The notes: a model not told the origin generated them from the sequence alone. A DNA stretch of 64,000 nt from Puniceicoccus vermicola (GCF_014230055.1 NZ_JACHVA010000040.1:1-64000), one strand, 5' to 3'. Counted from the first letter of the stretch, positions 14,390 through 28,069 are shown. Translations and numbers: made by a program.

Positions 14390-15289
14390 TCAAGGAGCTT
14401 CCTCAAGGCCCCAAACGCGGCAAACTTCATCAATCACAACCGCTCCCCGGCGATAGCCCTCCGTTCCTTTCCGAAACACAAATGACAAGAGCACCGACTC
14501 GGAAAAACAGGGCACGATTGCGATGGATTTTCGGTCGTGGTAAAGCTCGAGCGCCTTCCGGGAGATCACACTGACACCCATTCCACCGGCGACATAACTC
14601 AGAGTAGTTAAATCATTGGGACAATTGCGAATCTGGGATTTCAGCCGAAGGCCGTGACCTGCGGCCCAGTTTTTCGCAGCAGTAAAACACGAACACCCCT
14701 CACTCATGAATATCCAAGGATGCTCTTCCAATGCCTGCGGCAAAACTTCCGCCCAATCGATCTCCCACTTCGCTGGGGCGACAAGAATCAACTCCTGCCT
14801 TGTCAGCGGAATCGCCTCCAAATTTGCATTTTCAATTGGGCCCTCGAAAAAACAAAAATCGACCTGCTCCCCGAGCAATTTCCGCAAATTCTCAACCGAG
14901 TTCCCAAAACTGGTTTCGAGATTCAAATTGGGATACTGAGCCACCAACGCCTTCAACAGTGCATCAAACCGAATCACCTCTGGAGGGTTATTGATGGCTA
15001 AACGAATCGTCCCGCTCACCGCGTCATCTGAGGTCCGAACCCGATCTCTCAATTGATCCACACGACTCAGGATCCCCTCAGCCTCCTGCCAAAGCGCGTG
15101 ACCCGCTTCGGTAAGGAACATTCCCCGGGCGCTCCGCACAAACAGCTGTACCTCTAAAAACTCTTCAAGCGCTTTGATCCGGGCACTGACCGACGGAGCA
15201 CTGAGATGAAGCTTCTCGGCGGCCCGTGTCAGGTTTTCCTCTCCGGCGACAGAGCAAAAGATTCGCAACTGCTGAATGTCTACACACAT
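14390..15289 (-). CDS. LysR-family transcriptional regulator
   Basis: A 299-aa regulator with the N-terminal winged HTH (MCVDIQQLRIFCSVAGEENL, then TRAAEKLHLSAPSVSARIKA), a linker helix and a periplasmic-binding-like effector domain (from about residue 90). It is first in a two-gene unit with the PanE-family gene and is transcribed divergently from the cytochrome/barrel/reductase cluster across a 254-bp gap. LysR proteins often control the divergent neighbour, so it may regulate the electron-transfer genes, but no T-N11-A box was identified with confidence. Confidence 0.92.
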   Translation of the reverse strand: MCVDIQQLRIFCSVAGEENLTRAAEKLHLSAPSVSARIKALEEFLEVQLFVRSARGMFLTEAGHALWQEAEGILSRVDQLRDRVRTSDDAVSGTIRLAINNPPEVIRFDALLKALVAQYPNLNLETSFGNSVENLRKLLGEQVDFCFFEGPIENANLEAIPLTRQELILVAPAKWEIDWAEVLPQALEEHPWIFMSEGCSCFTAAKNWAAGHGLRLKSQIRNCPNDLTTLSYVAGGMGVSVISRKALELYHDRKSIAIVPCFSESVLLSFVFRKGTEGYRRGAVVIDEVCRVWGLEEAP

Positions 15290-15543
15290 CGATTCTTAAA
15301 CAGCCGACAGTTTACACCCTTTCCGGAAAAAGAACATGATTCGTTTCCAAAGTCCCCTTCGGCCAACCTGAACACTCGACATCTGGAGAGGCACAAAATC
15401 GAGAGTCATTCGCAAATAGTCAGCGTTTCACTTGGGCTCCAGTCCCAATCGCACATCGGCCCAACCCTTACCGGAGCAGGCTTCCGATTTCCCTCGTTTC
15501 AAGCTGGTATTTATTCTTCTAATCACTACCGATTTATTTGCTA

Positions 15544-17586
15544 ATGACCACCTTCCGCCTCAAACCTATCACTTTCATCGGTATCCTTGGCGCATTGCTT
15601 TGCACAGCTTCCGTAGCGGTTTGGGCTGGGGTTGAATCCTCCCTCAAAAAGACGGAACATGAAGTGGCCGACGAATACAAAAAGATCGAGGACAAGGTAA
15701 ATTCCAAGGCTAGGGATTTTTCTTCCCGGCACGAGATGTTCAAGAGCGTCGAGGAGGAAGCAACGGCCAAACAACTCAAAGCAGCCAAGGGAAATCCAGC
15801 CCTCCAGCAGCAGATCGCCGACCAAGCCCACATCGATCTTCTAACCCGCAAAAGATTCCCATCGGCGATGGATTGCTCCGTCTGCCATCCCTATCACTTC
15901 GAAGGCTGGTCCGCCTCCGCTCACTCCTACGCCCAGATCAGCCCGATCTTCAACGCAATGCAGGGCACGTTCATCGACCGGAGCAACGGAACCAACGGCG
16001 ACTTCTGCATCCGCTGCCACACTCCGGTTGGCATGGCTCTTGAGGAACCTCTCTTCACGGCGAACGAAAACCGGTCCTCCGTCTCCCGCGAGGGGGTCAC
16101 CTGCATCGTTTGCCACCGCGTAAACGGAGAATTTGGCCGCGTATCGGGACGATTCCCAATCGAGGAGGGGCCGATCTACGACAAGATGTACGGTCCCTTG
16201 GCCAACAAGGTCATTCAGGAAGTCATCAAACGATATGACGTCTCACCCGCTCCGGGAGTCAACGAGGGAGCGGAGAAGATCCACGCCGGCACCGAACGAA
16301 TTGGCGTCTTCCAGAAGCCCGTCTTCTGCGGAATGTGTCACGACGTAAACAGCCAGAACGGATTCCGACTCGAAACCGCCTACACGCAATTCCTTAACTC
16401 CCCCGCGCATGAAAAAGGCCAGAGCTGCCAGGATTGCCACATGTCCAAGATCCCCGGACAGCCGCTAAGTGGGTTCCACAAGGGACCCGTCGCCGAGATC
16501 GGAGGCCAACCTACCCGCGAACAAAGGTTGACGGACCATTCCTTCCATGGCCCCGACTACTCGATTGTGCATGCTGGCGTCTTCCCCCACTCGGTCGAAA
16601 CAACCGAGCTGGCCGCGTTCCAGGACTGGTTTGATTTCGACTACACGGCCGGTTGGGGATCTGAAACGTTTGAAGCCGATGAAACGGGAAAGTCCGATTT
16701 CCCTGAGGCCTGGCAAAGCAGATCCAAGCGGATCAAAGCCCGCCAATTGATCGATTCCCAAATCAAGCGATTGAAAAAATTTGATGCCGGACGCCGGCAA
16801 CTCCTGCGCCGCGGATACCAGTTCCGGGAGTTCGAACTTTTGCAAAATGACGACAAGGGCATTGCCTTCGAAGTCACGATCCAAAACGGAACGGATGGCC
16901 ATGCCATTCCCACGGGTTTCGATGCCGAGCGGGTGGTCTTCGTCCAAGTCACCGTCACGGATCAGGAAGGCAATATCGTCTTCCAATCCGGTGACCGCGA
17001 TCCCAATGGAGACCTGCGCGACGGCCTATCTCGCTATGTTCACAATGGAGAAGTGCCGTTTGACTCATACTTGATGAGCCTTCAATCCGACTTCCTGGCT
17101 CTCAATCTCCGCGGTGGACAGCGACCCGAGATCCTCACCATCGACTATTCCGCCACAGCCCTTCCCTTCGTTCGCCCCAACACGATGTCGAGCCTGCTCC
17201 TCGGTCATCCACCCGACACCCGAAAGATCGTCAACAGTCTTCCTCCCAACGGCAGCCTCACAGGCCGCTATGTCGTCACGAAAGATCAGCTCACCGGAAA
17301 GGGGCCCTATCTGGTCAACCTTCGATTCATTTCCCAAATGATGCCGGTCCACTTGGTGTGGGAAATCAGCGGAGTCGGATTTGACTACGGCCTCTCCGCA
17401 AAGGAAGTCGGGGACCGCCTGGTAAAGGGAGCCCTCACCCTCTGGGAACACAACATACTGCTGGATTCTCCCAGCGCCTCCATCGACCTTCGGCCGACCG
17501 AGGATGATATCCTTTCTTCAAAAACCACCGACGAGACCGACAACCACTGGTATCGCTACATCAATTCTCTCCTGAAAAAGAACTGA
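15544..17586 (+). CDS. Periplasmic pentaheme cytochrome c (cytochrome c554-like) with signal anchor
   Basis: A 680-aa protein with an N-terminal signal/anchor (about residues 9-29), a charged helical region (35-100) and five CXXCH heme sites at 111-115 (CSVCH), 155-159 (CIRCH), 187-191 (CIVCH), 262-266 (CGMCH) and 295-299 (CQDCH). The GVTCIVCH pattern resembles the cytochrome c554 family. The C-terminal half is beta-rich and holds HAIPTG (453-458), a motif seen in several multiheme cytochromes. It probably acts as a periplasmic electron carrier. I use ATG 15544; a TTG two codons earlier is possible. It is first in a tight three-gene unit: its stop overlaps the ATG of the barrel gene (TGATG). 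Confidence 0.88.
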   Translation: MTTFRLKPITFIGILGALLCTASVAVWAGVESSLKKTEHEVADEYKKIEDKVNSKARDFSSRHEMFKSVEEEATAKQLKAAKGNPALQQQIADQAHIDLLTRKRFPSAMDCSVCHPYHFEGWSASAHSYAQISPIFNAMQGTFIDRSNGTNGDFCIRCHTPVGMALEEPLFTANENRSSVSREGVTCIVCHRVNGEFGRVSGRFPIEEGPIYDKMYGPLANKVIQEVIKRYDVSPAPGVNEGAEKIHAGTERIGVFQKPVFCGMCHDVNSQNGFRLETAYTQFLNSPAHEKGQSCQDCHMSKIPGQPLSGFHKGPVAEIGGQPTREQRLTDHSFHGPDYSIVHAGVFPHSVETTELAAFQDWFDFDYTAGWGSETFEADETGKSDFPEAWQSRSKRIKARQLIDSQIKRLKKFDAGRRQLLRRGYQFREFELLQNDDKGIAFEVTIQNGTDGHAIPTGFDAERVVFVQVTVTDQEGNIVFQSGDRDPNGDLRDGLSRYVHNGEVPFDSYLMSLQSDFLALNLRGGQRPEILTIDYSATALPFVRPNTMSSLLLGHPPDTRKIVNSLPPNGSLTGRYVVTKDQLTGKGPYLVNLRFISQMMPVHLVWEISGVGFDYGLSAKEVGDRLVKGALTLWEHNILLDSPSASIDLRPTEDDILSSKTTDETDNHWYRYINSLLKKN

Positions 17587-19283
17587 TGCTCCTCCGCCGA
17601 ATCCATCGCCTCTCGTTCCCTCTCTTCCTCGCCGGATCCGTGTCGGCTGCTGCACTCTGGGATGCCACGAATTCCAAGAGTGCGGAGCAGACGAGGCCCG
17701 ATAAAGAAGTGCACTCGACCGAAAGCACCGCATCCGAGGATACCAAACCAGTCGCAAAGACCCGCTCGCAGCCGGAAGATTCTTCCTCAAAAGCCGCGCC
17801 CACTCCCAGAATGGTCAAGGGCACGGTCATCCTGACCAGCACCGGAGAAGAGGCCGAGTACGACATCCCTTCCTTCGACCAACCAGAAGTTTCCAGCGAC
17901 GCTGTCATCCAGGAAGAAGACATTCTCGATGCGCCCCGCCCGGCCGTTCAGAATCCCGCTCCCACCGATTCCCAGCGGAGCATCGTCACCCGGATCCGCA
18001 AGAGTGCTTTGCTCGACGTCGCCTACCCGCTGGCTGACTTACCCGAACGGCCCAATCTCCTCCTCAGCTGGGGAGACCCCTTCTTCGGCCCCGGACCGAT
18101 TAGCAAGGGATTCGAGATCCCCACCGGAGCCATCTGGAATCCGCAATTCTTTATATTCGGCACCTACTCCACCGCTCTTCAAACCTTCGACGACGGAGCG
18201 GTCCAAACCACCGAGTGGGTCAACGCGCTTGATCTCTACGGGAACCTCAACCTCACTCCAACCGAAAGGATCCTCATCGGCTTCACCCCCTTGGATCGAA
18301 ATGGTAGCTTCACCGGATACCAGTGGGAGCCCGACGATAAGGGCCTCGACGCGCTGAACGGCAACATCGAAACTCTTTTCTTCGAGGGCCGATTGACCAG
18401 TCTTTTCCCCGGCCTGCTCGACTCCAGCGTCGATTGGAACGTCGATTTCTCCGTAGGGCGCCAGCCGCTTTTCTATCAGGACGGCATCCTTATCGACGAC
18501 AACATCGACAGCATCGGCATTACCCGGACCAACCTCTTCTGGCTCGGCAGCTCGGCAACGACCGTCACCGGTCTCTTCGGGTGGGATAATATCGACCGCG
18601 GAACCGGAGTAAATGAGGAGGATTCCGGTGCATCCCTCTTCGGACTGCTAACGCAGTGGAACTACAATGATCTCCAGGTGGAGTTCGATGTGACCTTTGT
18701 GGACGGAGGGCACACCATCGGCGGCGACGGAACGAATATTTCCCTCGGGGGCAATACCCGCTTCGGAGGTTGGCTCAATATCACAGGCAGCATCAACCAA
18801 TCGATCGCCTCCGGTGAAGAAACCGCCGGGAGCGGGACAGGAACTTTGCTCTTCGCCCAGTTTTCAACCCAGCCGTCCCACACCGTCGACAACCTCTACG
18901 TAAACACCTTCCTCGGAATTGACGAATTCACCTCAGCCGCCCGCGGGGCGAACGATGGCGGACCTCTCGGTCAGGCTGGCATCCTCTTCGCCGCCACGGG
19001 CCTGGGCACCTTCGGGCCAGCCCTGAATTCGAGTGGTCAAAATACCGTAGGCGGAGCCATCGGCTACCAACACTTCCTCGGAGATGTCGATCAGCAACTC
19101 ATCGGCGAGATCGGAGGGGTGACGAGCTTAAAAGGTTCCTCCAATACCGCCGTTGCCACTGGTGCCGAGTACGAGCTCGGATTCTGGCAGCATTTTGTGC
19201 TCACACTCGGAGCCTCCGTTACCTTCCAAGAGGAACTGGATACCGGCTATGGACTCCGTTCCGTCATCACGTACTCGTACTGA
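17586..19283 (+). CDS. Outer-membrane beta-barrel (porin-like) protein, partner of the multiheme cytochrome
   Basis: A 565-aa protein with a signal peptide (SFPLFLAGSVSAAA), a disordered charged segment (about 25-110) and then long alternating strands with Gly/Asn/Asp turns through to the C-terminus VITYSY, which ends in an aromatic residue. Several segments such as LFFEGRLTSLFPGLLDSSVD and QVEFDVTFVDGGHTIGGDG look like barrel hairpins. I do not recognise a named family. Its translation is coupled to the pentaheme cytochrome, which suggests a porin-cytochrome relation as in MtrAB-type conduits. That is inference from context and architecture, not sequence identity. A simple solute porin remains possible. 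Confidence 0.75.
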   Translation: MLLRRIHRLSFPLFLAGSVSAAALWDATNSKSAEQTRPDKEVHSTESTASEDTKPVAKTRSQPEDSSSKAAPTPRMVKGTVILTSTGEEAEYDIPSFDQPEVSSDAVIQEEDILDAPRPAVQNPAPTDSQRSIVTRIRKSALLDVAYPLADLPERPNLLLSWGDPFFGPGPISKGFEIPTGAIWNPQFFIFGTYSTALQTFDDGAVQTTEWVNALDLYGNLNLTPTERILIGFTPLDRNGSFTGYQWEPDDKGLDALNGNIETLFFEGRLTSLFPGLLDSSVDWNVDFSVGRQPLFYQDGILIDDNIDSIGITRTNLFWLGSSATTVTGLFGWDNIDRGTGVNEEDSGASLFGLLTQWNYNDLQVEFDVTFVDGGHTIGGDGTNISLGGNTRFGGWLNITGSINQSIASGEETAGSGTGTLLFAQFSTQPSHTVDNLYVNTFLGIDEFTSAARGANDGGPLGQAGILFAATGLGTFGPALNSSGQNTVGGAIGYQHFLGDVDQQLIGEIGGVTSLKGSSNTAVATGAEYELGFWQHFVLTLGASVTFQEELDTGYGLRSVITYSY

Positions 19284-19289
19284 CCTGCC

Positions 19290-21008
19290 ATGCTTCCCTC
19301 CCTCATTCGAAAGCGAACGGTTTTCTTCACACTCCTGAGCCTCCCAGGCCTTTTTGTTCTGGCGAGTATTTACGCCCCGAGCTTCAACTCATGGCAGTTT
19401 CGGGACATCCAGAATTTCCTGGGGAACATTGCAATGTTCCTCCTTATCTTCGTTTTGAGTCTGACCCCTTTGATCCAGCTCTTCCCTCGATGGAGGTTGG
19501 CTCAAGCCCTCAATACCCACCGAAGGTCTATCGGGATCAGCTGCTACATTTACGCTTCGCTTCACTTGCTGTGCTACATCATCTCGCTGCCGAGCTCAGC
19601 GAGTATCCTCCAGGATTTCCAGGAATTTCTTTACCTGCAGCTAGGACTCGCCGCTTTCATTCTTCTGACCCCCCTCTTCCTCACCAGCAACAGCTACTCC
19701 GTAAGGGTATTTGGATACAAACCCTGGAAAATCCTCCACCGGCTCGCCTACATCGCCGCGATCGCCGTTTTCCTACATCGCTCTTTGGGCGAGGAGATTC
19801 AGCTTTTCCAAACTCTCCTCATCTTCTTCCCCCTCTTCCTTCTCGAGAGTCTCCGTATTCTCAAGAACCTTTTCGGCCTCTTCAAGAAGAAGGGAAGCGC
19901 GCCGCCTCCCGTCATCCGCAAGCCCCGCCCCAAACCGGCCTGGGAGGGCTATCGGGACTTCAGGGTCGCCCGCAAAGAGCCCAACCCCGGCGAGATCTGC
20001 TCTTTCTATCTTGAGCCAGTCGATGGTCAACCGCTCCCTCCCTTTCTCCCCGGACAATACCTTACCTTCAAATTCGAAGTTCCCGGACAGGCAAAACCGG
20101 TTCTTCGTTGCTACAGTCTTTCGGATGCACCGGCCCAAGACCATTATCGAATCTCGGTTAAACTTCAGCGCGCGCCACGAGACGTCCCCACTGCCGCGCC
20201 CGGAATTTCCTCAACCCACCTCCATGCCACCGTCCAAGAAGGAGACATCCTTCAGGTAAAAGCGCCTGCAGGAAAATTCACTCTCGAAGAGAATGTTCGT
20301 AAGATCGCTCTCGTCAGTTCCGGCGTCGGCATCACTCCCATGCTTTCGATGCTCTACCACCGCATCAACCAGGGACTGCGTGATGGCGACGAGATTTGGT
20401 TCTTCCACGGGGCCCGCACTCGAGGTGGACACTTCACCGCGGAAGAACTGGAAAAGATCGCCGACAAGAATCCTCAACTCCAGATCCGAGTCTGCTACAG
20501 CCGACCAACCGAAGGAGAAAAGCAGATCAAACAGGATTTCCAGATCGGCCGGCTTGGAGCTGGATTCATCCGCACACATCTTCCCAGCAAAGACTACGAT
20601 TTCTACATTTGCGGCCCCAATGCCATGATGGCCGAGGTTGTGCGTGGCTTGGAGGATTGGGAGATCGCACCAGAGAGGATTCACTTCGAGGCCTTTGGTC
20701 CCTCCTCGGTCAAGCGCACACGCCCCCTCCCCAAGTCCGCCAGCGAAGAACCGACCTGCACGGTCACCTTTGCCCAATCCCAAAAAGAGCTGGAATGGAC
20801 AGGAGAACAGGAAAACCTTCTCGAGCTTGGAGAAGCCGCCGGACTCACTCTCCCCTTCGGCTGCCGCTCGGGAGTGTGTGGAGCGTGCAAACAGGAAATT
20901 GCTAGCGGCGAGGTCGAATACGACTCTGCCCCCGCGGCCGACCCCGGCGAACACGCCTGCCTCCTCTGCCAAGCCAAGCCCAAAGGCGACCTAATCCTCA
21001 AAGCCTAA
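19290..21008 (+). CDS. Transmembrane ferric-reductase-like protein with FAD/NAD(P) and 2Fe-2S domains
   Basis: A 572-aa three-part redox protein. Residues 10-190 form about six membrane helices with histidines placed for heme b (H77, H92, H150, H163). Residues 220-470 are a ferredoxin-NADP reductase module with the FAD motif RCYSLSD (273-279), SSGVGITPML and the NAD(P) end CGPNAMM. Residues 485-572 are a plant-type ferredoxin with C525, C530, C533 and C560. It is built to pass electrons from cytosolic NAD(P)H via flavin and iron-sulfur to heme b in the membrane. It starts 6 bp after the barrel gene and ends the three-gene unit. It could feed the periplasmic cytochrome or run in reverse. Confidence 0.88.
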   Translation: MLPSLIRKRTVFFTLLSLPGLFVLASIYAPSFNSWQFRDIQNFLGNIAMFLLIFVLSLTPLIQLFPRWRLAQALNTHRRSIGISCYIYASLHLLCYIISLPSSASILQDFQEFLYLQLGLAAFILLTPLFLTSNSYSVRVFGYKPWKILHRLAYIAAIAVFLHRSLGEEIQLFQTLLIFFPLFLLESLRILKNLFGLFKKKGSAPPPVIRKPRPKPAWEGYRDFRVARKEPNPGEICSFYLEPVDGQPLPPFLPGQYLTFKFEVPGQAKPVLRCYSLSDAPAQDHYRISVKLQRAPRDVPTAAPGISSTHLHATVQEGDILQVKAPAGKFTLEENVRKIALVSSGVGITPMLSMLYHRINQGLRDGDEIWFFHGARTRGGHFTAEELEKIADKNPQLQIRVCYSRPTEGEKQIKQDFQIGRLGAGFIRTHLPSKDYDFYICGPNAMMAEVVRGLEDWEIAPERIHFEAFGPSSVKRTRPLPKSASEEPTCTVTFAQSQKELEWTGEQENLLELGEAAGLTLPFGCRSGVCGACKQEIASGEVEYDSAPAADPGEHACLLCQAKPKGDLILKA

Positions 21009-22370: not shown

Positions 22371-24194
22371 TCAGAATCCGACCGACAGTCGATAGAAAGC
22401 TTTCTCTCCGGGGTCAATTGATTCGGCATCTGTGATCGTAATTGTCGTCCCATTACCGCTCGACATCGCGACTACATTCGCAGACCCCGAGGCGCCGCCC
22501 GATTCACTCCAGCTACCAATCACACTCCAAGAGTCCGCCGCCAACGTCAGGCTCTTTTCCAGCGAATAGGTGGCCCCACTGGGAGCTGTATCCGGAATCT
22601 CAATAACAAACTCCGCATTTCCTCCAGCCGTGAGCGAGGGCGCCGCGATCGGACGGGCCGAATATGCGGTCGGGTCGAGATCAAAGCCATACTCCACTCC
22701 GTTCCCCACTTGGTCTCCATCATAATCCGCCCCTTCCGCAATCTCTTCACTAACCGTCGGGGTCGTCCCCGTATTTTCAAAGGCCCAGAGGTAATAAGGT
22801 TCCGCGTCGATAATGGTCGCCGTAGCCAGCGGATCACCTATCACCACACTTTGCCAGGAAAGCTGCATAATCGAGGACCAGGCGGCTTCAACATAGGTCA
22901 ATCCCTCTTCGTAAAAGGCATTGAGGAATACTTCGCTGCGAGAGATGCCAATGTTAAACGGTTCCCACACCGGTCCGGTGGCAAAGGTTCCGCCAGCCGC
23001 GATCCATTCGGTTACTTGGGCTTGATTTACGGCCAGCGTCACGCCCGCCAGACCAGCCGCCCCGTAGCTTTCGTAAGCCGCAAAACTCGCCCCCGGAATC
23101 AACTGACCCTCGTAGCTGCTCAGGTATTTTCTCTCTCCTCCACCATTGTGATTTACGCCGTAAGAATTCAGATGAGCGACCGGTCCAGTGACGACGACCT
23201 CCGTCCCCGAAAACGAAATGGTGTCGATTGCACCACGAAAGAACTTATTCGAATGGTCGAACTGCAACTGATCCCAATCGGCAGCAAAGAGGCTTTCGAC
23301 ATTGCCATAGTCGTCCACAAGATCGTCGATCACGGGGTCATATATATACTGGAGCCGCACGTCCTTTCCCTCACTGTCGACTGTCCTTGAATCCGCATCG
23401 AGAAGGATCGCATCAGTCTGCTTGCGGATGACAACCGATGCAGCTCGATCAATCATCGCTTTTACGTCGGAAACGGTTTCCGCGTCAAGTCGGGCCGTGA
23501 GGTAAAGATGCCCGGCGTCGAAGGGAACGTATTGAGGTTGCCCCGGATTCGACGATTGAATCATTCCAAGCCACCAATTGTAACCCACCGCTTCCGGTTC
23601 GAAATAACGGTCGCCCGAAACAATTTCGCTCCGATCAAAATTCCCGAATGGCGTCGTTCCACGGTAATAAGGATTATAAATTGCGCGGTCGGCGGGCGAG
23701 TCCGAGGAGCCGCCGGCCTCCCCCTCTTCCAAGTCGAACTGCAAGAGCGTCAGCTCAGAATCGACGGAAGCATAAGTGATATTTCCGTTGTTGTAGGCGG
23801 TCGAAGAGGCTTCGGGATTATCTCCAAGATTCGGACTGTTCGGGGCAATCTGCTGAATGCGGTGTGGCAATCCTTTCGTCAATACGATCACACAAATCAA
23901 CTCCGCCAGACCGTCCCCATTTTCGTCGACATTCCCATTCAAATAGGTGCGAATAGGCGTTCGGATCTTACTGATAAAGTCGGCGTAGGAGATGGTTCCC
24001 GGCAGGAGAGACTCGTCATTGAGATCTAGTTTCTTCACCCCTTTCCGTGCTTCTGCATAGTAGTCGGCCACTTCCTGACTGTCCCCATTCTGACTGTTGT
24101 AGACCACAAGAACCTGTTCTGGATCCAAGGCCAGAAGACCTCGGCCAAAACAAAAGAGGACTGCAGCGAGGACAATGAAACGGACGTGGGGCAT
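22371..24194 (-). CDS. TIGR03790-family secreted protein
   Basis: A 607-aa exported protein with a clear signal peptide (FIVLAAVLFCFGRGLLA). The mature N-terminus PEQVLVVYNSQNGDSQEVAD and the later YYAEARKGV and LTKGLPHRI match the TIGR03790 family known from Verrucomicrobia and Planctomycetes, whose function is unknown. A calcium-loop-like segment DYDGDQVGNGVEYGFDLDP (about residue 490) precedes a C-terminal beta domain ending FYRLSVGF, a kind of tail often seen on large secreted verrucomicrobial proteins. No cell-wall or PEP-CTERM sorting signal is present. It is monocistronic and faces the hexosaminidase gene tail to tail. Confidence 0.8.
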   Translation of the reverse strand: MPHVRFIVLAAVLFCFGRGLLALDPEQVLVVYNSQNGDSQEVADYYAEARKGVKKLDLNDESLLPGTISYADFISKIRTPIRTYLNGNVDENGDGLAELICVIVLTKGLPHRIQQIAPNSPNLGDNPEASSTAYNNGNITYASVDSELTLLQFDLEEGEAGGSSDSPADRAIYNPYYRGTTPFGNFDRSEIVSGDRYFEPEAVGYNWWLGMIQSSNPGQPQYVPFDAGHLYLTARLDAETVSDVKAMIDRAASVVIRKQTDAILLDADSRTVDSEGKDVRLQYIYDPVIDDLVDDYGNVESLFAADWDQLQFDHSNKFFRGAIDTISFSGTEVVVTGPVAHLNSYGVNHNGGGERKYLSSYEGQLIPGASFAAYESYGAAGLAGVTLAVNQAQVTEWIAAGGTFATGPVWEPFNIGISRSEVFLNAFYEEGLTYVEAAWSSIMQLSWQSVVIGDPLATATIIDAEPYYLWAFENTGTTPTVSEEIAEGADYDGDQVGNGVEYGFDLDPTAYSARPIAAPSLTAGGNAEFVIEIPDTAPSGATYSLEKSLTLAADSWSVIGSWSESGGASGSANVVAMSSGNGTTITITDAESIDPGEKAFYRLSVGF

Positions 24195-24501: not shown

Positions 24502-25962
24502 TCAACCACCCCGCCGTGCCGCGACCGCCCATTCGTAGACTTGTGAGTATTCTGCCGCGGAACGATCCCAAGAAGCGTCTCGGGTCATCCCGTTGATCCG
24601 GAGTCGGTGAACTTCATCGGGCGCATGCTCCCAAAGAGTGATGGCCTCAAATATCCTTCCTAAAAGGTCATGCGGATGCGGATCATCGAAAAGAAAGCCA
24701 TTCGAATTTTCCTGTCCCACCGGGATGACCGTGTCCGCTAACCCTCCTGTTCGGCGAACAACCGGAATCGTCCCGTATCGCATTGCATACTGTTGCCCCA
24801 GCCCACACGGCTCGAAACGGCTTGGCATGATAAAGAAATCAGATCCCGCAATAATCCGATGCGCAAGTGCTTCGCTGAATCCAATGTAGGTCCCTACACA
24901 ATTCGGATGACGCCAAGCGGCTTGCGAGAAACTGTCTTCTTGCCATTGCTCCCCGGAGCCGAGAACTACCAATTGCATTCGGCCACTATCCGCGATTCTC
25001 TCCACCACAGAGGCAAGCAGATCGAGTCCCTTCTGGTGAAAAAGTCGGGATACGACTCCGAAAAGAGGTATATGAGGGTTCACCTCAAGACCAAATTCGC
25101 GTTGCAAATCGGCCTTCACACGATCTTTCCCAGCGAGATTTTCTACTGAATAGTTTTCGGGCAGCTGGGGGTCGGTCGCCGGATTCCAGGCGTCGAGATC
25201 GATCCCATTTAAGATCCCGACCAGGTCAGCTCCCTTGAAACGCAATGCGTGATCCAAACCAAAACCACCACTAGGGCTACGGATCTCGAAAGAATAAGTC
25301 GGACTGACGGTTGTGATCTTATTTGCATGATAGATCGCTCCCTTCATCCAATTCATTCGCCCCAAGGATTCGAGCCCTGCTTCTTGATAAACCCAGCTCG
25401 GCAACTGAGTGTAATTGAGAACCTCAGGCGAAAAATTCCCTTGGTGCTCGAGGTTGTGAATCGTGTAAACGGAGGAAGTCCCCTGCCACGGTCCACTATT
25501 GTAGAGAGTGTTTAAATAGATCGGAACCAGCCCCGTGGTCCAATCGTGGCAATGGACCACATCTGGAATCCAGTCGAGCAAGTGACAGGTCTCCAATGCG
25601 GCCCGCGCAAAGAAAGCAAACCGACGGTCATTATCACCATGAGCCCCCCAAGGACCATGATATATTTCCCCGCGGGAGAAGTACTCCCCATACTCAATAA
25701 AATAGAGAGGAACCTTCGCCCCATGATTGATCTCAGTCTCCCAAAGCGAAGCGAACTGCGTACCATCTCCCGTCGGAACGTAGAGAATTTCGGGACGCCG
25801 CGCCCAATTTTCCTCGATCGTGAGACTTCCGTGGCGGGGACAAACAATCCGAACATCGTGTCCGGCCGCCGCCAGCGCTTTGGGCAATGCCCCGACTACA
25901 TCAGCCAACCCACCTTCTTTGACGAAGGGAGCGACTTCGGGTGCAACCATCAATATCTTCAT
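24502..25962 (-). CDS. glgA: Glycogen synthase (ADP-glucose), GT5 family
   Basis: A 486-aa glycosyltransferase of the GlgA type that extends alpha-1,4-glucan from ADP-glucose. The N-terminus MKILMVAPEVAPFVKEGGLA carries the KxGGL nucleotide-binding motif, and the C-terminal half has SRFEPCGLGQQYAMRYGTIP and RRTGGLADTV. Length is normal. The ATG overlaps the stop of the upstream exosortase gene by four bases (ATGA), so translation is coupled. That pairing is unusual for glycogen metabolism, so a role in exopolysaccharide synthesis is also possible. Confidence 0.92.
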   Translation of the reverse strand: MKILMVAPEVAPFVKEGGLADVVGALPKALAAAGHDVRIVCPRHGSLTIEENWARRPEILYVPTGDGTQFASLWETEINHGAKVPLYFIEYGEYFSRGEIYHGPWGAHGDNDRRFAFFARAALETCHLLDWIPDVVHCHDWTTGLVPIYLNTLYNSGPWQGTSSVYTIHNLEHQGNFSPEVLNYTQLPSWVYQEAGLESLGRMNWMKGAIYHANKITTVSPTYSFEIRSPSGGFGLDHALRFKGADLVGILNGIDLDAWNPATDPQLPENYSVENLAGKDRVKADLQREFGLEVNPHIPLFGVVSRLFHQKGLDLLASVVERIADSGRMQLVVLGSGEQWQEDSFSQAAWRHPNCVGTYIGFSEALAHRIIAGSDFFIMPSRFEPCGLGQQYAMRYGTIPVVRRTGGLADTVIPVGQENSNGFLFDDPHPHDLLGRIFEAITLWEHAPDEVHRLRINGMTRDASWDRSAAEYSQVYEWAVAARRGG

Positions 25963-27017
25963 TCTTCCTTCTTCTCTGACCCTTGATCTTCTTCTTCTCC
26001 CGATGAATCCTCATCCGAGTAAGAGGTTTCCTCAAGCTTGAGGCGAAAATTGAACAGGGGTAAGAGCAGAAACAAGCCGACACAGGTAAAACCGAGAACC
26101 GCGTAGCCCGTGATATCATGAACCTTTCCGGCAATCGCATCAGAGCCATAAACATGAGCCCAACTGGTGAGGAAGAGACTGCGCACGATATTCATGATAA
26201 AGGCGAAGATCATCGCGCAAACGACGAGGAGAATTTTCTTCCACCAACGATTGAGAAACACCGCAGCCAGAAATGATCCGGCAAAGAGGCAGGCCGTCAG
26301 AGAGCGGATCCCCGAGCAGGCGTCTTCCACTCCTACCCGTCCCTTTTCTAGGATAAGAGTATTGCCCTCCCGCTGAAGCGGAATTCCTAGAATATCGAAG
26401 ACGTTGAAAACAATAACAGTAACCTTATTGAGCAGAAACAGGCTTACCTTCGTCTCGGCAAAATCCAAAAGCGGAATTGAAAGAATCCAAATCAAGGCAG
26501 GGAAGACAAACAAACCCGTGAAAAGAAACCGATAGCGTGCAGGAACCGTAGTTCCTTCGCCTACCGGAGCCCACCCAGCTCCAATAAAAGCCATTGAAAT
26601 ACAGGTGGCGGCAAATCCGTAAGCAAGCGCCTGTCCACCGGGCAAGAGAGGATTATTCGCAATCGCCTGTAGGAATCCTCCTAAGAGGAAAAGGCCCAAT
26701 CCACCCAGTGCCCCGCACCAAGCGAGAGCAACAAGCAGTCCGGTGCCCAGTGACTGCGAACGCGGCAAGACCGGAACCACCTCGCCATTCCATTTCCTTT
26801 CCTGCAGGAATGCCTTAATCTGAGCCCACCGCTCATAAACCACATACCCCACGAAAAATGGGACAATGAACCCAAAACTATAATCCTCTCGATTCGCCCA
26901 CCACTTTTGCTGGTCGAAGACCAAATAGCCTGCCATCGCAATCAGGAGAAAGCCAGTATAACGGATATAGGAGGGAAACCCGGTTTCGGCCGGCTTGCTA
27001 GGGGTTGAGGAAACCAT
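25959..27017 (-). CDS. Exosortase (EpsH/archaeosortase family)
   Basis: A 352-aa polytopic membrane protein with about eight helices. The catalytic triad of exosortases is visible: Cys in VEDACSGIRSL, Arg in NIVRSLFLTSWAHVYG and His in VHDITGYAVLG. Exosortases process PEP-CTERM proteins during transport to the surface and are commonly linked to exopolysaccharide genes. The C-terminal tail is highly acidic (SDEDSSGEEEDQGSEKKEE). It is first in a coupled pair with glgA. No PEP-CTERM substrate was found in this window. Confidence 0.9.
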   Translation of the reverse strand: MVSSTPSKPAETGFPSYIRYTGFLLIAMAGYLVFDQQKWWANREDYSFGFIVPFFVGYVVYERWAQIKAFLQERKWNGEVVPVLPRSQSLGTGLLVALAWCGALGGLGLFLLGGFLQAIANNPLLPGGQALAYGFAATCISMAFIGAGWAPVGEGTTVPARYRFLFTGLFVFPALIWILSIPLLDFAETKVSLFLLNKVTVIVFNVFDILGIPLQREGNTLILEKGRVGVEDACSGIRSLTACLFAGSFLAAVFLNRWWKKILLVVCAMIFAFIMNIVRSLFLTSWAHVYGSDAIAGKVHDITGYAVLGFTCVGLFLLLPLFNFRLKLEETSYSDEDSSGEEEDQGSEKKEE

Positions 27018-27112: not shown

Positions 27113-28069
27113 TCACCCAAACAATCCCTTTCGCAGTCCCGTCCCCACGGCGAGCCCCTTCCAGTCGCTCCCCCGCAACGGGTGAGGTCTTCGCGCCCGC
27201 TTCCCATCCGGTTCGTTTTCCAAGAACTTGTTCACAAAGTCCTCCGATCCCAGCACCATCCCATCCGAAAAATACCGCACCCGGCACCGCAAAACTACAG
27301 AAAGAGGCAACTTACCCTTCTCCTCCTGCAATACCCGCACCGCTTCCTCGTGAGAAATAGACGCTTTCCCTTCTTTCTCACCACCGCCAGACCCATACAA
27401 AGTCTGCCGATACCCAGCCAGGTCCTTATCCACCATTGAGAGCCCAGCTCGAGCCAATCGCCCTCCACCAAGCGCCTCCGCATAACCGCAAAACCGATAA
27501 TCCTTAGGATCCGAAACCAGCCCGGCCCGAACCGCGTTCAGGTCAATATAGGCCGCCACCGTCCGCAAAGCCCAACGATCCCCTTCCACCAGCACACTCT
27601 TAAAACGTGCCGACCAAAGCGGACCAAACCGATCCCGTGAGCGGTTAAACCAAAGCGTATACCGAAGCTTCAGAGTCCGCATAAACTCCGAAACATCATG
27701 CATCCGGCGGGTAAGCTCCTTACGCAACTCCCTTCCATCAAGAAAGTTATCCTTCAAATGCCCCTCCAAAACCTCCGCAGGCATTGGATTCCAGGGAGTA
27801 GGCTTAGGATAAAGCTTCCGATACCGACGAACCAACTCCGCATCTGAAACCTCTGTCCCTGCTGGTGGCACCTCCACCAAAATATGGAAATGGTTCTTCA
27901 TCACCGCATAAGTAACCACCCGAACCCCGGAAAACTCAGCCACCTGCCAGATCATTTTCCGCAAAACCTCCCTCTCCCGGTCGCCAAAGAGAGCCTCCCC
28001 ATTCACCGTCCGACTCATCAGATGGTAATACGCCAATTGATCCGAAATACGACACCTACGCCTGCCCAT
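27113..28069 (-). CDS. Y1/HUH transposase, REP-associated (RAYT) type
   Basis: A 318-aa protein with the HUH motif HFHILVEVP (about residue 60) and the single catalytic tyrosine in AAYIDLNAVRAGLVSDPKDY. The flanking pattern is the one typical of TnpA_REP/RAYT proteins rather than compact IS200 TnpA. RAYTs mobilise REP/REPIN sequences in trans and are often stably maintained. It begins with ATG 28069 (MGRRRCRISDQLAYY) and has no terminal repeats of its own, but an AT-rich hairpin lies just upstream (28096-28113). The REP-like palindromes in this window are possible substrates. Confidence 0.85.
   Translation of the reverse strand: MGRRRCRISDQLAYYHLMSRTVNGEALFGDREREVLRKMIWQVAEFSGVRVVTYAVMKNHFHILVEVPPAGTEVSDAELVRRYRKLYPKPTPWNPMPAEVLEGHLKDNFLDGRELRKELTRRMHDVSEFMRTLKLRYTLWFNRSRDRFGPLWSARFKSVLVEGDRWALRTVAAYIDLNAVRAGLVSDPKDYRFCGYAEALGGGRLARAGLSMVDKDLAGYRQTLYGSGGGEKEGKASISHEEAVRVLQEEKGKLPLSVVLRCRVRYFSDGMVLGSEDFVNKFLENEPDGKRARRPHPLRGSDWKGLAVGTGLRKGLFG

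Follow-up and report, generated by a model that had tools for sequence, protein, structure and literature searches.

A compact PCC4-type gene module in Puniceicoccus vermicola places a pentaheme cytochrome and an outer-membrane barrel beside a fused heme-b, flavin and 2Fe-2S reductase

Introduction

Do three adjacent genes of Puniceicoccus vermicola encode one redox unit of the cell envelope and, if so, where would its electrons come from and where would they go? The question is raised by a 64,000-nucleotide stretch of DNA (GCF_014230055.1 NZ_JACHVA010000040.1:1-64000; referred to here as the window, and its genome as G000), in which genes for a multiheme cytochrome (CYT), an outer-membrane barrel (BAR) and a membrane-bound reductase (RED) lie between positions 15544 and 21008. 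A published system that bears on the question is PCC4, which was named in 2017 by He et al. from gene content in the genomes of Fe(II) oxidizers and was also reported from drinking-water filters. In the parts of that paper available to us, PCC4 is described as a set of genes for a porin, for cytochromes with 4, 5 and 10 hemes and for an inner-membrane protein which carries an SGXXG motif and two WX3HX13H motifs, plus other redox genes; a Hyphomicrobium subgroup has no Fe-S (pfam13247) gene, and its redox gene is ordered differently (PMC5566968). The accompanying model has electrons moving inward to the quinone pool. No experimental test of PCC4 was found in the open-access papers searched.

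Results

Conservation of the three genes

CYT (15544..17586), BAR (17586..19283) and RED (19290..21008) are open frames on the plus strand, with the ATG of BAR overlapping the stop of CYT (TGATG) and a 6-bp gap between BAR and RED. Full-length CYT was found in 5/177 genomes of the order (G000, G022, G116, G103 and G008), and the order CYT-BAR-RED was kept in all five, with flanking genes which differed except in the close relative G022. In a sample of the phylum, strong CYT matches and BAR matches occurred in the same 7 of 388 genomes (Fisher p 4e-15). When CYT loci with at least 1.5 kb of downstream sequence were considered and BAR was sought among all open reading frames, BAR adjoined CYT in 78/78 loci, across many phyla. 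Because gene order is kept despite differing flanks, and because CYT and BAR adjoin in every one of these loci, the arrangement reflects more than chance; the co-occurrence result is strong, and CYT and BAR are inseparable. A sequence-only reading of the window had treated the three genes as one module and named co-occurrence as a check; the genes do co-occur in relatives and form one conserved unit.

A scan of named genomes returned at least 416 relatives, of which 80 were kept. These came from Acidobacteriota, SAR324, Nitrospirota, Nitrospinota, Planctomycetota, Bacteroidota/Rhodothermota, Myxococcota, Alpha- and Gammaproteobacteria, and others. In one acidobacterial metagenome-assembled genome (L069:9893-13312) CYT and BAR form a single open reading frame of 1139 aa, and no frame holds a signal peptide between the two. 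Since this fusion, which was seen on a single contig, joins the C-terminus of CYT to the N-terminus of BAR without a signal peptide, the two proteins probably stay associated at the periplasmic face. A second candidate fusion (L051:8950-12658, genome G280) was set aside, its CYT frame being broken and its BAR retaining a signal-like segment. In that genome a TAG and a change of frame interrupt the CYT gene, which then continues in frame into BAR, a result of either decay or assembly error.

Relationship to PCC4

A frequent order of genes in the larger loci was the 5-heme cytochrome (CYT5), BAR, RED, a 4-heme c554-like cytochrome, a cNMP-binding/4Fe-4S protein, a membrane protein of ~275 aa and a 10-heme cytochrome, and the isolate Tistlia consotensis shows this full-operon order too. 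Ferruginivarius sediminum is a further isolate that has the full set. Of 33 CYT loci with ~9 kb of sequence on both sides, 22 also held the genes for the heme-b membrane protein and the 10-heme and 4-heme cytochromes. Full-operon membrane proteins carry the PCC4 motifs (W75-H79-H93, W248-H252-H266 and G118/G121) and the Fe-S protein matches PF13247, while the Hyphomicrobium loci have no PF13247 protein and a reductase which starts with the 2Fe-2S domain. Set against the published description, gene content and motifs identify the full operon as PCC4, with CYT and BAR as its 5-heme cytochrome and porin; a 5-heme cytochrome adjoins a porin in each of the 78 loci, and the full operons match the published gene content. 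RED carries the FAD, NAD and 2Fe-2S domains of the PCC4 redox gene, and from gene position the FAD/NAD/2Fe-2S reductase would be the "redox gene" of the PCC4 paper.

The window, UBA4506 (G022), G116 and G103, which are four Opitutia-type genomes, form a compact clade together with Methyloprofundus (L055). The CYT tree supports this clade at 100 and the RED tree at 95 (SH-aLRT), the two topologies agree, and in the CYT tree the clade is nested among Verrucomicrobiota with the full set (e.g. L015, L070). The compact reductase is ~570 aa long with several N-terminal transmembrane helices, whereas the reductase of full PCC4 loci has at most one such helix. In G000, G116, G103 and the Methyloprofundus metagenome-assembled genome, which is small and may be incomplete, searches with profiles of the 10-heme, heme-b and 4-heme families yielded some short weak matches and nothing convincing; the controls G008 and G525 gave strong matches. 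When the search for the PCC4 4-heme and 10-heme cytochromes was extended outside the window, G000 gave no 10-heme match and a 4-heme match of only 28 residues (E 6e-4). Nor was there a match in G000 to the PCC4 inner-membrane protein (WX3HX13H twice, SGXXG), which is present in the full-operon relatives. As judged from these gene sets and trees, the compact module is a derived, minimal PCC4 variant which has lost the intermediate parts and carries the reductase as a fusion to a heme-b domain.

The ferric-reductase-type donor in the window had been regarded as unusual. A donor other than the CymA/NapC type is not unique to the window, because the PCC4 inner-membrane protein is already ferric-reductase-like in the available part of its description (PMC5566968); what stands as unusual is the fusion, together with the loss of the other parts. 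Each of the four Opitutia-type compact genomes has 3-4 heme-copper oxidases and these organisms are therefore probably aerobic. Away from the module, G022 holds in a row a distant 613-aa reductase, a five-transmembrane-helix membrane protein and a 7-heme cytochrome (L177:5730-9162), a possible related NAD(P)H-to-cytochrome module.

Inner-membrane genes without CYT and BAR

Parts of PCC4 also occur on their own. In G101 the genes for the reductase, the Fe-S-type protein, the heme-b membrane protein and the 10-heme cytochrome lie together without CYT or BAR; in G079 the membrane and 10-heme genes adjoin each other and a reductase homologue lies in the same region of the contig; in G153 there are a reductase and a 10-heme gene. 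None of the three genomes has a full-length CYT. As the reductase accompanies inner-membrane genes in such genomes, it appears to belong to the inner-membrane side. Among the Opitutales, L179:110-5766, L178:6966-13176 and L180:659-4007 have the PCC4 inner-membrane set in part or in full but no CYT5, and in L179 a 792-aa protein without a Pfam match and a further multiheme cytochrome come next. In Nitrospirales the reductase position is occupied only by a 160-aa membrane-anchored protein with a transmembrane segment and a 2Fe-2S domain (L062:13251-13730; L064:8867-9355), so that the ferredoxin domain is retained where the FAD/NAD part is lost. Several acidobacterial loci have no RED.

Features of the three proteins

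CYT is a predicted secreted pentaheme c-type cytochrome of 680 aa, starting at the ATG at 15544 (alternative TTG at 15538) and stopping at 17586. Its CXXCH motifs lie at residues 111-115, 155-159, 187-191, 262-266 and 295-299, within a heme domain of ~residues 96-310 (15829..16473) which also contains the conserved candidate distal histidines 96, 127 and 247. The predicted structure consists of this helical domain and a beta-rich domain (~residues 420-650; 16801..17493) with high-confidence predicted strands, which aligns in part with the second domain of pentaheme c552 from Thermochromatium tepidum (5ze8). The latter protein, considered here together with the PHC family, was the best fold and profile match (Foldseek E 2.4e-10, TM-score 0.70 of target; profile E 1e-19); like CYT it has five hemes followed by a beta-sandwich domain, although identity is only ~15%. 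A cable-bacteria study ties this c552 to ExtKL-type pentaheme proteins, and in the portion of that study available to us the function of pentaheme c552/PHC is not established (PMC11976967). CYT itself scored 41.9 bits with the ExtKL profile (NF040886), under the curated cut-off of 250, and its Pfam match, Cytochrome_C554, was barely above cut-off. The five CXXCH histidines and at least five conserved candidate distal histidines fit five bis-His hemes, which points to CYT as an electron-transfer protein.

BAR (565 aa) has no Pfam family match. Its structure, modeled separately from that of CYT, is a predicted outer-membrane beta-barrel of ~18 long strands from residue 187 onward (residues 187-565; 18144..19280), mostly with pLDDT >90, preceded by a low-confidence segment (residues 31-143) which is probably disordered. 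Clear homology to a solute porin with no cytochrome interface had been named in the sequence-only reading as a point that would refute it. The best Foldseek matches were to 18-stranded OprD/Occ, AlgE, MOMP and Wzi barrels, and BAR thus matches solute porins in fold, yet with only ~10% identity and TM-scores near 0.6 of target. No MtrB-type barrel was among the matches listed for BAR in the Foldseek and profile searches. Residues predicted to face the pore were more conserved than those facing lipid (2.54 vs 1.92 bits), and the interior is polar.

RED (572 aa) has Pfam matches, all above cut-off, to Ferric_reduct (residues 45-160; 19422..19769), FAD_binding_6 and NAD_binding_1 (residues 252-450; 20043..20639) and the 2Fe-2S ferredoxin domain Fer2 (residues 498-565; 20781..20984), with partial NCBIfam matches to MsrQ and flavohemoprotein. 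Histidines 77, 92, 150 and 163 of the heme-b domain are invariant in four relatives, so that a predicted heme-b domain with two His pairs is combined with FAD and NAD(P) domains as in NOX enzymes and ferric reductases. The N-terminal heme-b domain shares 34-41% identity with stand-alone MsrQ-like proteins, which adjoin an MsrP-like gene (Oxidored_molyb) in L181 and apparently also in L183. An MsrP-type gene (Oxidored_molyb) gave no match in the compact genomes G000, G022, G116 and G103, with the control G052 positive, and the MsrQ-like domain of RED would therefore have another partner. Homology of this domain to the PCC4 membrane protein was considered and rejected, none being detected, while the cytosolic half of RED is homologous to the PCC4 reductases. 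Open frames, Pfam domains and the BAR model bear out the tightly packed set of five-CXXCH cytochrome, 565-aa barrel and fused reductase that had been read from the window, and the domains of RED agree with an inner-membrane redox partner of NOX/MsrQ-like heme-b, flavin and 2Fe-2S type.

Genes beside the module

A divergent LysR-family gene (14390..15289, minus strand), identified by family profile matches, had been suggested as a regulator of the module. The gene is present, but it is a neighbor only: it does not lie beside the module in G022, G116 or G103 (L012, L013 and L014), and the suggestion was dropped. No Fur box beyond shuffled-sequence expectation was found upstream of CYT, and scans for promoters and terminators gave little above shuffled expectation. 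Plasmid carriage was considered and rejected, with weak partial matches only. Beside the module is a TIGR03790-family protein of unknown function (22371-24194), a homologue of which also adjoins the module in G022. Further along the window are an exosortase/archaeosortase-family gene (25959-27017; TIGR04178 above cut-off), next to GlgA, and a REP-associated tyrosine transposase-like gene (27113-28069), for which the match is partial and under the curated cut-off.

Discussion

We give roughly even chances to the reading that the three genes of the compact module derive from PCC4 and encode an envelope reductase driven by NAD(P)H. The sequences themselves show the domain architecture, the pairing and joint inheritance of the genes, the lack of the PCC4 intermediates and the joining of RED to a heme-b domain. 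In NOX and MsrQ family enzymes electrons pass from NAD(P)H to FAD and on to hemes b. RED would likewise oxidize cytosolic NAD(P)H via FAD and carry electrons through its b hemes across the inner membrane, with the 2Fe-2S domain as a second port or relay. The electrons would be accepted by CYT, in the periplasm and held at the outer membrane by BAR, and CYT would in turn reduce an acceptor reached via BAR, either outside the cell or as a solute inside the pore. An NAD(P)H donor side is likely; the direction of flow, CYT as the partner of RED, its docking on BAR and the onward transfer to an outside or pore-bound acceptor are steps we infer. No pumping step would accompany the departure of electrons from NAD(P)H, which favors a role in assimilation, protection or redox balancing over respiration that conserves energy.

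Several observations weigh against this reading. The module encodes no periplasmic shuttle to bridge the two membranes, and BAR, which in its model resembles 18-stranded solute channels and not MtrB, may be too narrow to enclose CYT. The acidobacterial loci without RED, and the Nitrospirales loci with only a 2Fe-2S protein in its place, suggest that the family may have partners other than NAD(P)H. He et al., in the available part of their account, proposed flow in the opposite direction, inward to quinones (PMC5566968). We are doubtful of a more far-reaching version, in which the compact module is a complete three-protein exporter from cytosol to surface and shows that PCC4 in general runs outward from NAD(P)H, as an NAD(P)H oxidase or ferric reductase acting outside the cell, and does not conduct electrons from Fe(II) oxidation to the quinone pool.

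The resemblance of BAR to OprD/AlgE/MOMP barrels and not to MtrB makes a solute channel a serious rival. BAR would here admit selected solutes, and CYT would act in the periplasm either as a reductase or as the electron donor to one; electrons from RED would reduce an imported oxidant there and would not leave the cell. Polar, conserved residues predicted to face the pore fit such a channel, as do the 18-stranded OprD/Occ, AlgE, MOMP and Wzi barrels found as top structural matches, but at ~10% identity and TM-scores near 0.6 of target these matches indicate a class and not a function. The arrangement resembles one proposed role of ExtI in Geobacter selenite and tellurite reduction; ExtI is porin-like, lies beside the 5-heme ExtKL and is required for normal selenite/tellurite reduction, not for Fe(III) reduction (PMC5877670). 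Ten conserved histidines for five hemes, however, leave no obvious open catalytic site in CYT, and no known substrate gene is linked to the module. On balance we hold this explanation possible, with a tentative standing only.

Inward flow would begin with an external donor such as Fe(II) and pass through CYT, with the b hemes and flavin of RED as its endpoint in the compact form. The occurrence of PCC4 in Fe(II)-oxidizer genomes and drinking-water filters, as given in the available text, is in keeping with it (PMC5566968). Against it, the only inner-membrane partner in the compact form is an NAD(P)H-type reductase, and reductase homologues accompany the inner-membrane set even where CYT and BAR are absent. 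Reduction of NAD(P)+ from a high-potential donor would be uphill and run against the membrane potential, and inward flow is for this reason disfavored; we consider it improbable. Scarcely probable at all is an independent RED, a NOX or MsrQ-type enzyme generating superoxide or repairing oxidized periplasmic proteins which lies beside CYT-BAR by chance. Bacterial NOX enzymes exist, and the identity of the RED N-terminal domain to stand-alone MsrQ-like proteins, with their MsrP-like neighbors, would suit such an enzyme. Yet the four compact genomes have no Oxidored_molyb gene, the order CYT-BAR-RED is kept in 5/5 compact loci, the RED and CYT trees agree, and the cytosolic half of RED is a homologue of the PCC4 reductases.

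With respect to known systems, the module shares with PCC4 a 5-heme cytochrome, a porin, an FAD/NAD/2Fe-2S reductase, a ferric-reductase-type heme-b step at the inner membrane and the lack of an extracellular cytochrome. It differs in having no 4-heme or 10-heme cytochrome, Fe-S protein or stand-alone membrane protein, its heme-b domain being instead MsrQ-like and fused to the reductase. Neither Verrucomicrobiota nor a compact form is mentioned in the available part of the PCC4 description (PMC5566968). The Geobacter ext cluster resembles full PCC4 in combining a porin-like protein and 5-heme cytochrome with 4- and 10-heme cytochromes, a cytochrome b and an Fe-S protein, but as described it contains no NAD(P)H reductase, and ExtI is reported to have weak similarity to phosphate porins whereas BAR has no Pfam family (PMC5877670). 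MtrAB, PioAB and MtoAB also pair a multiheme cytochrome with an outer-membrane barrel; BAR is instead ~18-stranded and OprD/AlgE/MOMP-like, and CYT has five hemes, not ten. Bacterial NOX (SpNOX, PMC5676040) and MsrQ share the heme-b transmembrane domain with RED, and NOX its fusion to an FAD/NAD(P)H module, whereas RED has in addition a 2Fe-2S domain, a fixed CYT-BAR neighborhood and no MsrP in the genome. A porin-multiheme cytochrome system from the same phylum (He et al. 2017) has, in the part of the paper available, an eight-heme periplasmic cytochrome and a porin for which 20 or more transmembrane segments are predicted, and no flavin reductase is mentioned there (PMC5615132).

The compact clade offers a natural simplification of PCC4, in which cytochrome and barrel are kept with a single NAD(P)H reductase and the rest is replaced by a heme-b fusion. 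The L069 fusion would be useful for structural work on the CYT-BAR pair. If RED does feed CYT-BAR, the module offers a set of three genes small enough for reconstitution in a laboratory host and points to the electron source and the direction of flow of the parent PCC4, which is present in many phyla.

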